IMG/VR virus record: IMGVR_UViG_3300047320_000207
Location: 1 to 30,954 of that record
Direction: 5' to 3' (one strand)
Origin: a virus
Length of the DNA stretch: 30,954 nucleotides
The notes below the pieces were generated by a model, which searched no databases, was not told the origin of the DNA, and saw nothing but the letters and a program-made list of their open reading frames with translations. The first letter of the stretch is position 1. Each line of letters opens with the position of its first letter. Position numbers and translations under genes: made by a program. Shown one piece after another: positions 19,021 to 21,551 of this stretch.

Positions 19021-19623
19021 TCAACTCGTAGTCAGTGCGTGTTCAAGGTCCGCTGAAGACATGCGCTCGGCATCCTCCAGCGAGCGACGGATCGCCGCTG
19101 TCAGGTGCTTTTCGATTTCCCAAGGGTCGGTCATGGAAGCCAGTTCGGGTGCCAGCTGTGGAGGCATACCCAGCAACTGATCGCGGAGCATCCGACCAGC
19201 GTTGTAGGCGCCGGTCTGGACCGCTGTCGCCGACACCAGTGACCCCTTTGCCTTGTGCAACTCGATCTCGGCGAGCTGGGCCAGGTTGTGTTCGCGCAGT
19301 GCGCGGGCTTTCTGGAAGTCCGGCAGCTGCCCCGTGGGGACAATCACTGGCGGCGACGCAGCCATGGAAGTCGGCTCGACCTGGCTGGTGAGCTGGCTAT
19401 ACACATCACGCTGAAGCCGATCTTGGTGGTGCCGATCAGCAACGGCGGTTTTGCTCGGGTCAGCGGTGTCACGAATCAACGCTTCGCTGGCCATGACATC
19501 CACTTGCTTACCATCGGCGGTGAGCACCAGTCGGTTGTTGTTTTTCAACCAGGTGATGTAGCTGGGTGCCCTACCGATCCGAGCCGCAAAGGCGCTCTTT
19601 GACAGGTACATTGGTTCTGTCAT
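19021..19623 (-). CDS. Terminase small subunit (Nu1-like)
   Basis: This 200-residue protein starts MTEPMYLSKSAFAARIGRAP, then SYITWLKNNNRLVLTADGKQVDV: a winged-helix/HTH N-terminus of the Nu1 type that recognises the packaging site. A helical central part (ALREHNLAQLAEIELHKAKGSLV) is for oligomerisation and for contact with the large subunit. The start has an excellent ribosome binding site (AAAAGGAGGGC). It is the first gene of the packaging block, and the region just upstream is the expected place of cos. Confidence 0.93.
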   Translation of the reverse strand: MTEPMYLSKSAFAARIGRAPSYITWLKNNNRLVLTADGKQVDVMASEALIRDTADPSKTAVADRHHQDRLQRDVYSQLTSQVEPTSMAASPPVIVPTGQLPDFQKARALREHNLAQLAEIELHKAKGSLVSATAVQTGAYNAGRMLRDQLLGMPPQLAPELASMTDPWEIEKHLTAAIRRSLEDAERMSSADLEHALTTS

Positions 19624-19633
19624 AAGCCCTCCT

Positions 19634-19800
19634 TTTCAACGGCTTTTCAATGCAAACCTTTCAATTTCAATGGATTGAATTTCAGTAAGCTGGCAACCCT
19701 GCCGCTAACACTTTCCCGCGGGTTTGCGACCCCGTACCCACCGAATACCCTCAGGGTCCCCTCCGCTTTTTTTCGCAGTCAGCGCCTTGCAGATTAAACT
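19634..19800. other. Candidate cos/packaging region upstream of terminase
   Basis: The gap between terminase and the TIR gene has four TTTCAA copies (19634, 19645, 19659, 19665). The last is part of a palindrome TTCAAT-GG-ATTGAA (19666-19679). About 35-80 bases further there are several GC-rich inverted repeats, such as CCCGCGGG and ACCC-TCA-GGGT, and a T7 run. In lambda, cos and its terminase-binding repeats lie immediately upstream of the small subunit gene. The repeats could be small-subunit binding sites, and the cut site could be one of the GC-rich palindromes. No cohesive end can be read from a prophage sequence. Confidence 0.35.
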
Positions 19801-19884
19801 GGAGCTACAGTTAGGCAGGACGCCAGAGTTCGTTCTTGACCATCAAAGTGATGCCTATCGGATTGTTTTCATTGGGGGATTACC

Positions 19885-21042
19885 GTGTCGCTGAAAATAT
19901 TTGTGAGCTATGCGAAGGAAGACAGAGAGCACGCTTTAAAATACTACGATCTTCTCATTCAAGAAGGGATGCTTCCTTGGATAGACGTGAAACACATCCT
20001 CCCCGGTCAGAACTGGGAAGCAGAAATTAGCAGAGCATTCCAAGACGCCAACGTAGTCGTCCTGCTAATCAGCAACAAAAGTGTCAATAAGCGGGGCTTT
20101 GTTCAAAGAGAAGCAAACGATGCCATCGAGCGCCTCAGATACAAGCAGCCGACCGATATTTACGTACTACCTTTGCTTCTTGAGCCGTGTGATGTTCCAA
20201 GTCACATTTCTGTACGCCTTCAATACGTTGATCTCAGTACATCTGGGGCATGGGAACAGGTGAAAGCCTCACTCCGATTGGCTGCTGAACAACAGTCAAT
20301 TGAGCTTACCCAAGGTTTGAATGCTGGCGCGTTTAAAATTTTTTCTGAGCAGCTTGAAGATCACTGGGAAGGCGCACCAGGTCATGACATAAAAATTGAA
20401 TATCCGCGATTCGAGTCAACATCTCATCGCGCAGCTGCCAAGGAACTGACCCTATTCTTCGGTGGACGAGCCACTAGTGGATTAATTGAATCAAGACAGA
20501 AGCCTTGGGATCAGCAGCCTGAAATGTTTCCTCAGGTTGGCGGATACGTTGCAACGAACGGGCGTTGGGAGAGTTATGGAGTCGTCCATGCAACCGATCA
20601 ATTCCTCAGCCTGACATATGAGGTCAGCTGGTATGGAGCTGGCGCGGCACATCCAAATTCGTACTTTGAGACCTACAATTTTTCGATGCCTGAGCGACTT
20701 CAACTTTTGGGTCTTGATGATTTTTTCAGTGACAGGGATGCCGCTGTACAACGCATCAGCGAGTTGTGTGTCGCCGAGTTGTGCCGAGAGTATTGGAGGC
20801 GGTTTAGTGAAAAGCCAGACGAGCACCAGATTCAGTGGTTCAACGACGGCGCAGGTGCGAAAGCCGATAACTTCACTAAATTTACTGTCAGTGCAGACCA
20901 TTTCACATTTTTGTTTGCGCCATACGAAGTTAGCGCCTATGCCTGTGGAAACTGGAGCGTAGACGTCTCTTTTTATGACCTTCTCGAGACTTTAAAGCCG
21001 GACGGACCTCACCTACTTGCGGCGCAACAAGCGATTATCTAA
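19885..21042 (+). CDS. TIR domain protein with RsiV/PdaC-like (DUF4163/DUF3298) C-terminal domain
   Basis: The protein has 385 residues and a GTG start at 19885 with GGGGGAT upstream. Residues 1 to about 135 are a TIR domain: KIFVSYAKEDRE (BB-like first strand and loop), then PWIDVKHILPGQNWEAEISRAF, VVVLLISN, and RGFVQREAND, where Glu76 is at the position of the catalytic Glu of NAD-cleaving TIRs. Residues about 165 to 365 look like a DUF4163/DUF3298 module, with GAGAAHPN (251-258), YNF (264-266) and PYEVSAYACG (346-355). In RsiV this module binds lysozyme. There is no signal peptide or membrane segment, so it is presumably cytosolic. Gene content is visibly AT-richer than its neighbours, and the strand is opposite to the late operon: a moron. 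A defence or toxin role via NAD cleavage is inferred. Confidence 0.85.
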   Translation: MSLKIFVSYAKEDREHALKYYDLLIQEGMLPWIDVKHILPGQNWEAEISRAFQDANVVVLLISNKSVNKRGFVQREANDAIERLRYKQPTDIYVLPLLLEPCDVPSHISVRLQYVDLSTSGAWEQVKASLRLAAEQQSIELTQGLNAGAFKIFSEQLEDHWEGAPGHDIKIEYPRFESTSHRAAAKELTLFFGGRATSGLIESRQKPWDQQPEMFPQVGGYVATNGRWESYGVVHATDQFLSLTYEVSWYGAGAAHPNSYFETYNFSMPERLQLLGLDDFFSDRDAAVQRISELCVAELCREYWRRFSEKPDEHQIQWFNDGAGAKADNFTKFTVSADHFTFLFAPYEVSAYACGNWSVDVSFYDLLETLKPDGPHLLAAQQAII

Positions 21043-21160
21043 TGCTCTCCAAGTGGCGACTTACAGCGCCCCCTTCATTCCGTGATTCGTTTGGAAAGGC
21101 GGACATCACTGCACTAGTTACAGCAGGAGAGAATCCGCGAGTTCGATAATACGTGTAGGG

Positions 21161-21213
21161 GGCGGCCCTCGGGGAGGCCCAGAAAAATCGGCGTCTGCCC
21201 CCGAGGTGCCGCC
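21161..21213. other. Long GC-rich hairpin between the TIR gene and holin
   Basis: GGCGGCCCTCGGGG (21161-21174) pairs with CCCCGAGG-t-GCCGCC (21199-21213): 14 base pairs with one bulged base and a 24-base loop. It touches the holin stop codon and lies about 120 bases after the convergent TIR gene. No U-tract follows on either strand, so a simple intrinsic terminator is unlikely. It could be a transcription barrier, an RNA stability element or a remnant of moron insertion. Confidence 0.6.
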
Positions 21214-21551
21214 TAGGCGTTGTCGCCCGGCGCCGATTCCGCTACACCCAGTCGTTTCGCAACCCAGCGCTCGTATAGACCGATAGCAACATCGGCGCCC
21301 GCCATCGCTGTCAGGCAACCCAAGCTTCCAGCTGTCCAAATCGACATGCCTGCACCGACCATCAGCATCATTGCCGACACGCCACACACGATACAGGCGC
21401 CAGATCGCAGAGCCAGTCGGCGCAATAGCACCCAACCTCGCGCACCGTCCTTATCCGCCCGCCACATCTCACCCGACACACCACCTACCAGGGCCAGGAC
21501 GATCACTAACCAGATCGGCATTTCTGCCAGCGCTTGCTGTTCATTTGTCAT
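21213..21551 (-). CDS. Holin-like protein
   Basis: This 112-residue small membrane protein has an N-terminal hydrophobic segment (PIWLVIVLALVGGVSG, about residues 12-27). Two more follow in the ACIVCGVSAMMLMVGAGMSIW and AGSLGCLTAMAGADVAIGLY region (about 52-93). The end is charged (ERWVAKRLGVAESAPGDNA). This suits a phage holin, which forms the membrane lesion at lysis. It is the first gene after the Q-like gene and the tR'-like terminator, the position of the lysis genes in lambda-like phages. No endolysin follows in the window; it may lie beyond the tape measure protein, as in P2-like tail modules. It could instead be an unrelated membrane protein. Confidence 0.72.
   Translation of the reverse strand: MTNEQQALAEMPIWLVIVLALVGGVSGEMWRADKDGARGWVLLRRLALRSGACIVCGVSAMMLMVGAGMSIWTAGSLGCLTAMAGADVAIGLYERWVAKRLGVAESAPGDNA

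Follow-up and report, generated by a model that had tools for sequence, protein, structure and literature searches.

The window analyzed here, a virus record of 30,954 bases taken as a whole, contains a gene for a 385-residue protein in which an N-terminal TIR domain is followed by a DUF4163/DUF3298 unit, and this protein is probably an immune receptor of the single-protein kind that acts in the cytosol and travels as cargo of mobile elements. This was the best explanation because the proposed sensor is shared by proteins with interchangeable effector domains, because the carriers include mobile elements and because defense genes are frequently found close by. A TIR immune receptor with this sensor domain, together with a variant that carries an HNH nuclease, was unreported for defense in the searches made. 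The role of defense receptor suggested in an initial annotation of the sequence fits both the genomic surroundings and the exchange of effectors described below.

Genes for terminase, portal, head protease, primase and a repressor were noted in the window, along with genes for an E-type capsid, a contractile tail and a baseplate. Packaging, capsid and tail genes together with a repressor indicate a temperate tailed phage or a prophage fragment. Thus, the earlier description of the TIR gene as prophage-borne agrees with the presence of structural genes and a repressor in a virus record, while the designation prophage, judged from gene content, is likely only. The G+C content of the TIR gene was 48.1% compared with 60.0% for the window, and the gene was on the strand opposite to that of both flanking genes (Table 1), a pattern expected of a late-acquired cargo gene. 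Neither promoter-like nor terminator-like sites were found by a simple scan of positions 19600-21250.

Table 1. Coordinates in the window of the TIR-DUF4163/DUF3298 gene, its parts and its neighbors.
Feature	Position	Strand	Remarks
Whole TIR-DUF4163/DUF3298 gene	19885..21042	+	GTG start, 385 aa; recurs in 13 further distinct loci
GGGGGA, possible ribosome-binding site	19874..19879	+	5 nt before GTG
TIR_2 domain, residues 5-124	19897..20256	+	Pfam E 2.9e-22
Glu76 codon GAA	20110..20112	+	Kept in 14/14 TIR fusions; aligned with Glu of TIR-APAZ
C-terminal DUF4163/DUF3298 unit, residues 137-383, proposed sensor	20293..21033	+	Profile envelope; fold matches
PdaC/DUF4163 part, residues 169-259	20389..20661	+	20.6 bits, below Pfam cut-off 29.1
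DUF3298 part, residues 278-363	20716..20973	+	Pfam E 3.8e-10
GAGAAHPN loop, residues 251-258	20635..20658	+	Aligned at RsiV TQASS lysozyme loop; AH motif in 14/14 TIR fusions
PYEVSAYACG loop, residues 346-355	20920..20949	+	Aligned at RsiV P259-G260-Y261 lysozyme loop
Neighbor: terminase small subunit	19021..19623	-	phrog_57, E 2e-28
Neighbor: phage holin	21213..21551	-	Phage_holin_3_5, E 5.2e-53

Scores of the window protein exceeded the Pfam cut-offs for TIR_2 (79.9 bits versus 28) and DUF3298 (41.0 bits versus 24.1), while the PdaC profile fell under its cut-off in this protein and over it in two related fusions (L006 and L022). Thus, the 385-residue TIR protein and the DUF4163/DUF3298 motifs of the initial annotation, including YNF (residues 264-266), were all found where they had been placed, in agreement with Pfam. 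The catalytic glutamate is the active-site residue of TIR NADases, and Glu76 of the window protein, which we take to occupy this place, was confirmed at the position previously assigned to it, with the corresponding RE-motif glutamate, like the AH motif, present in all 14 TIR fusions identified. The protein had also been described as devoid of a signal peptide or membrane helix. Export was judged by a crude measure, namely the highest 17-residue Kyte-Doolittle mean as opposed to a dedicated signal-peptide predictor, and the maximum was 1.07 for the window protein, 1.07-1.74 for the 14 TIR fusions, 0.75-0.99 for three HNH fusions and 1.35-2.76 for 28 secreted-looking relatives. By this measure, the description held for the window protein, which was below the secreted range, although the ranges of TIR fusions and secreted relatives overlapped. 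Alignments placed the effector domain at or near the first residue in both TIR and HNH fusions, and no signal peptide was visible in the latter.

Support for the proposed fold of the C-terminal half was obtained from an AlphaFold2 model of the last 246 residues (11 sequences), which had a mean pLDDT of 79.9 and a pTM of 0.77. The solved structures closest to this model were 3cyg (Z 17.7), lysozyme-bound RsiV (5jen_C; Z 16.5, rmsd 3.4, 201 aligned residues), PA4972 (4e72; Z 15.5) and BF2082 (3s5t; Z 14.9), followed by the peptidoglycan deacetylase SpPgdA (2c1i) with a Z of 8.1, which is near the level possible by chance. Foldseek alone gave an E of 2e-9 for the comparison with RsiV. Thus, the C-terminus is predicted to fold as DUF4163/DUF3298, as had been expected, and RsiV was among the best matches in the comparison proposed earlier. 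Residues 3-137 of the model matched TIR domains, the top match being SPARTA TIR-APAZ (8qlo_A; Z 15.1, rmsd 2.7, 130 aligned residues), with several other TIR structures, animal ones included, tied within 1 Z of it. The full-length model was of middling quality (pLDDT 61.1), and contact between the halves was not readable from it. In addition, the secreted mycobacterial antigen MPT64 (2hhi) matched a wider profile of the sensor domain with an E of 9.3e-14, the Z for this structure being only 5.9.

Scans of viral contigs, species genomes, plasmids and 5,426 complete E. coli genomes identified 14 distinct proteins, duplicates removed, with the order TIR - DUF4163 - DUF3298 and with identities to the window protein that ranged down to 22%. 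These were carried by phage contigs, an E. coli satellite, plasmids and chromosomes, and the closest to the window protein were those of Pseudomonas sp. PB101 (L007, 86% identical) and Diaphorobacter aerolatus (L008, 72%). Recurrence of the identical domain order in 13 further distinct loci indicates that the fusion is real, and a sequencing artefact as its origin was ruled out by the 14 distinct loci. The number 14 was reached after removal of duplicates (L001, L003, L009-L011, L016, L019, L021, L023-L031, L067, L102-L104 and L106), of a cut Acidovorax copy (L005) and of plasmid hits that covered the TIR part alone. The Pfam TIR_2 profile was run on seven of the 14 and the other seven were assigned by alignment and motif; the PY motif was taken from alignments, as was the AH motif of HNH forms. 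Since much of the set came from viral-contig scans, the association with viruses partly reflects search design. No remnant of the C-terminal half was found by tblastn in the 12 kb of the cut Acidovorax plasmid locus (L005:6001-7610), where a TIR half 80% identical to that of the window is followed by an IS3 element.

Both domains evolve under purifying selection. Thus, dN/dS was 0.092 between the window gene and L007 (0.046 for the TIR part and 0.128 for the C-terminus) and 0.104 between L017 and L018. The dN value was higher for the C-terminus than for TIR in each of six pairs, some of which share members and four of which were saturated at synonymous sites. Faster change of the C-terminus fits a sensor, and looser constraint could give the same pattern.

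The TIR-fusion family is rare. When 84,980 species genomes were scanned with a pattern, which reaches close relatives only, two loci (L007 and L008) were obtained. Searches with the full-length profile gave matches in 7 of 298 genomes from the family of L007, comprising one TIR fusion (that of the centre genome), two HNH fusions and four secreted-looking proteins, and in at least 39 of 398 genomes from the phylum of L008, comprising at least one TIR fusion (again in the centre genome) and at least one HNH fusion. In the latter survey, which scored up to four candidates per genome, most places matched the TIR part alone, as read for L038, L039 and L050, and three places that matched in the C-terminal part (L048, L049 and L058) were unassigned to type. 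Searches with the C-terminal profile gave matches in 15 of 369 genomes from the class of L007 (the centre genome and 14 that looked secreted by eye), in 9 of 385 genomes from the class of G597, taken as Alphaproteobacteria (all secreted- or anchored-looking by eye), and a match in the centre genome only among 289 from the family of L008. Thus, a TIR fusion was noted only for the centre genome in the surveys of 298, 398, 369 and 289 genomes, and none was noted in the survey of 385. Similarly, tblastn of the window protein and L012 against 50,697 phage records gave no match at 1e-5, blastn of the window stretch gave none in E. coli and tblastn of two C-termini in plasmids revealed no new fusion.

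The nature of the C-terminal unit as an exchangeable module was suggested by three proteins of 315-317 residues, found in three genomes by profile searches, in which the same kind of unit follows an N-terminal HNH nuclease domain. In all three, HNH and DUF3298 scored above and PdaC below the Pfam cut-offs, and the HNH motif was complete. The TIR/HNH exchange thus looks like the mark of a portable immune sensor. One HNH form (L033) was a cassette in an array (L092:6415-13509) with five attC-type sites versus 0.04 expected by shuffling; no integron-integrase family was over its cut-off in the three genomes searched, and the array therefore has no demonstrated integrase. Rfam gave no match on the three HNH loci. 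The HNH part of L033 (L033:1210-2163) matched the NCBIfam IscB model with 38.8 bits versus a cut-off of 175, which suggests an HNH type akin to that of IscB. Searches by tblastn with L033 gave two plasmid records, in which the HNH part only was matched, and no match in phage records, while a scan of viral contigs with the HNH alignment gave four loci with short matches to the HNH part and the HNH profile matched only the centre genome among 244.

The other readable carriers of the C-terminal domain (28 in the tree; L053, L057 and L059-L062) appeared by eye to be secreted or membrane-anchored, in agreement with the extracellular location of the receptor part of RsiV. In a tree built from 45 C-terminal domains, separate clades were formed by the HNH forms (100/100), by eleven TIR forms (99/97) and by L004, L006 and L022 (100/100). 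The tree requires three changes, and a single TIR clade (p 0.31) and a single TIR plus HNH clade (p 0.21) were both compatible with the data. Together, the tree and clade tests indicate one to three captures of the C-terminal domain.

The association of the fusion with mobile elements was clearest in E. coli, where it occurred in 17 of 5426 genomes as 15 near-identical and two diverged copies named only 'TIR domain-containing protein' in RefSeq. All five of the near-identical copies inspected were in a satellite that adjoined a lambda-type capsid gene lacking its start. The missing capsid piece was at the far end of the satellite in four of these (L021, L023, L102 and L103), while in IAI39 (L019) one capsid piece was in view and an IS element, an integrase fragment and tRNA-Arg occupied the other side. 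The satellites carry capsid, decoration, SSB and primase genes of their own, and in L021 and L023 this capsid gene was 45-47% identical to the longer piece of the interrupted one. The TIR gene is located at the satellite end distal to the integrase and is oriented opposite to most neighbors. One diverged copy was part of an element that adjoins tRNA-Thr and has integrase, helicase and capsid genes; the other was by the same tRNA and adjoined IS26.

Genes of defense type were noted near fusions at other loci. Thus, DarT, HEPN and GIY-YIG genes were within a few kb on two Rhizobiaceae plasmids (Rhizobium and Agrobacterium), with DarT near L004, and a caspase-like gene, a bSEFIR/TIR gene and two unmatched genes were beside the fusion of Pseudomonas sp. 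PB101 (L007:972-6388), a cluster that may be a defense system of its own. An AAA_13 gene of the PADLOC candidate PDC-S06 was found near L017 and PDC-S57 near L022, and the HNH form L042 (locus L093) adjoined an FRG-domain gene of PDC-S15. L008 was chromosomal, beside an IS-type gene and without a clear defense neighbor, and by eye phage-type genes surrounded L002, L006, L013 and L014, which weighs against a defense role. In L002, the TIR gene was shortly before a gene for a small membrane protein (holin E 0.048, not significant) and a Phage_lysozyme gene. Proximity to lysis genes was given little weight as a hint of a muramidase trigger, since it was noted for the window (holin) and L002 and was absent from the E. 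coli, plasmid and chromosomal loci. At L017 and L018, a second gene (L017:8738-9487 and L018:5243-6025; 208 of 249 residues identical) overlapped the TIR gene by 4 nt. Its product had no Pfam or PADLOC match and, by eye, an ELK motif and a resemblance to PD-(D/E)xK nucleases.

The report on the RsiV-lysozyme complex places residues 163-171 and 255-261 of RsiV in contact with the lysozyme active site, with S169, P259 and Y261 as critical residues (PMC5014341). In a profile alignment, the TQASS stretch of RsiV fell on GAAHPN and the YEVAPGY stretch on PYEVSAYACG. Within the C-terminal family, no stretches were better kept than these two motifs, which indicates that the most conserved surface is the one that RsiV uses. 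The critical residues S169, P259 and Y261 aligned with the AHP stretch, A351 and A353, respectively, and were not kept; recognition of lysozyme would therefore require other contacts on the same face.

According to the preferred explanation, a DUF4163/DUF3298 unit of the extracytoplasmic type would have been taken into the cytoplasm as a sensor, where its GAAHPN and PYEVSAYACG loops, the two places that RsiV uses on lysozyme, would form a face for binding of an invader molecule, a protein from a competing phage being the likeliest candidate. Binding would cluster the N-terminal TIR domains, Glu76 of the clustered domains would then split or cyclise NAD+ and the infected cell would stop growing. 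In the HNH sister proteins, the same kind of signal would instead lead to DNA cutting. What many bacterial TIR systems respond to is not known. The DUF4163/DUF3298 unit has the look of a swappable alarm not described before, possibly for the detection of rival viruses, and the existence of a solved relative with a known binding face makes the question of its ligand testable by few mutants. The idea of a portable sensor also provides a handle for finding further systems and, if true, would connect phage defense with DUF3298, a poorly understood family that has links to lysozyme through LprI and RsiV. A comparable course of ligand sensing, TIR clustering and NAD+ consumption is described, with another sensor, in a report on SpbK (PMC12847820).

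Identification of a phage muramidase as the trigger, put forward as one possibility in the initial annotation, can be entertained only tentatively. The endolysin would be detected in the cytoplasm and the TIR domain would fire as it accumulates late in infection. In addition to the shared fold (Z 16.5 over 201 residues) and the placement of the RsiV lysozyme loops on the two most conserved motifs, matches to the lysozyme inhibitor LprI in six of six secreted relatives (L082, L084, L086, L087, L089 and L090, from the class of G597; five over the Pfam cut-off), which were picked by eye for that motif, as opposed to none of three others, are consistent with such a trigger, as is the order of genes in L002. 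However, the residues with which RsiV binds lysozyme are not conserved, the phage that carries L002 itself encodes the lysozyme and no endolysin was found among the window ORFs tested. Moreover, RsiV lacks the AH motif that a loose pattern detected in 27 of 28 secreted relatives and, as the odd member in this respect, may have acquired lysozyme binding as a private invention. The earlier claim is thus favored by the shared fold and by the LprI fusions of some secreted relatives, and disfavored by the lack of conservation of the lysozyme-binding residues. The wider proposal that the unit was recruited into the cytoplasm, perhaps repeatedly, as the sensor of a modular TIR/HNH receptor for phage endolysins, which would make it the first alarm for lysis enzymes, is doubtful. 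We know of no DUF4163/DUF3298 member other than RsiV with a known ligand. A C-terminus that, rather than sensing a protein, recognizes a small ligand (for example, a fragment of peptidoglycan) or acts as a hydrolase is unlikely. A role of this kind is made possible by a pocket-like set of residues, with a Ser, a His and two Tyr that hardly vary across the TIR, HNH and secreted forms and an Asn likewise kept in the first two of these, together with a weak match of residues 242-361 to the NCBIfam Rv3036c-type esterase model NF043047 (16.9 bits versus a cut-off of 200, E 0.0031), and the fold match to SpPgdA at near-chance level points in the same direction, but RsiV, from which this His is missing, has a protein as its ligand.

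Two other readings concern the output of the protein rather than its trigger. Production of a nucleotide signal such as cyclic ADP-ribose for a separate effector, as with ThsB of Thoeris, would mean that the TIR protein is not itself the killer. In favor of it, SpbK makes both ADPR and N1-cADPR (PMC12847820) and a second gene overlaps the TIR genes of L017 and L018, but no recurring partner gene was seen by eye in the other neighborhoods read and nothing ThsA-like was beside the window gene, so that this arrangement is rather improbable. Least credible, and considered very improbable, is a TIR protein of lysogenic conversion or virulence aimed at a eukaryotic host, or a factor for lysozyme resistance. 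Some bacterial TIR proteins reportedly act on animal hosts, TcpC being an example, and the C-terminal domain is found mostly in secreted-looking proteins. Against this, the effector domain is at the N-terminus with no signal peptide seen, the carriers include plant-associated bacteria, plasmids, satellites and a cassette array, the HNH forms would need delivery and defense-type neighbors were noted at individual loci. The single-protein immune receptor is retained as the preferred reading.

Comparison with known systems indicated partial likeness to several. B. subtilis RsiV (5jen) shares the DUF4163/DUF3298 fold and binding loops at the same places but is an anti-sigma factor whose receptor part is extracellular, whereas the window protein has TIR at its N-terminus and no visible export signal. 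Assignment to the RsiV-type lysozyme receptors was accordingly rejected, both the lysozyme contact residues and the anti-sigma and membrane part being absent. SpbK resembles the window protein in that sensor and TIR domains are joined in one protein, but SpbK senses the portal YonE through an N-terminal four-helix domain and has TIR at its C-terminus (PMC12847820), so that the window protein has the reverse order and another sensor; the gene for SpbK is reportedly on the mobile element ICEBs1 (PMC11984713). P2 and P4 elements, as described in PMC9122126, carry immune genes that include a single-gene TIR-NLR in which one sensor family is combined with TIR, SIR2 or nuclease effectors. This is a likeness to the single-gene TIR defense proposed here, but the TIR-NLR has a central STAND NTPase and a TPR sensor, according to the same source, and membership was rejected since no Pfam match to a STAND NTPase or repeat was found in the window protein at E <= 1.

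The SPARTA TIR-APAZ protein was among the closest solved TIR domains and the best PDB sequence match of the window protein. Membership was rejected, since the C-terminus is DUF3298 and not APAZ and no Argonaute was found as a neighbor or elsewhere among the window ORFs searched. Similarly, a portion of the TIR half was matched by the PADLOC ThsB model and, at a score far below the cut-off, by the NCBIfam ThcB4 model, but the neighbors are terminase small subunit and holin genes, with no ThsA partner, and the protein has an extra C-terminal unit; it was therefore not assigned to Thoeris. No PADLOC model spanned the fusion, matches being confined to the TIR or HNH part, and in NCBIfam no cut-off was reached, the sub-cut-off matches being to TIR models and the Rv3036c-type esterase model only, in which the score of 16.9 bits versus 200 excluded membership. 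Thus, comparison of the TIR part with defense profiles, as proposed earlier, gave a PADLOC ThsB match to part of it and no NCBIfam score over cut-off. In open-access literature, which held no bioRxiv and few subscription papers, so that a description elsewhere is possible, TIR and DUF3298 were not found together, no paper on DUF3298 or DUF4163 was about phage defense by title and nothing relevant by title was found for a TIR domain with RsiV and nothing for TIR defense that senses endolysin. The opinion that this fusion is not a described defense system was thereby upheld, as none of such make-up was found in the model libraries and literature searched. With respect to carriage, the words TIR and toll are absent from the main text of the report on the helper-embedded PICI 11capE (PMC10111431), although the E. 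coli carriers are of this type, being, as that report describes, satellites within a prophage capsid gene that bear a capsid gene of their own.
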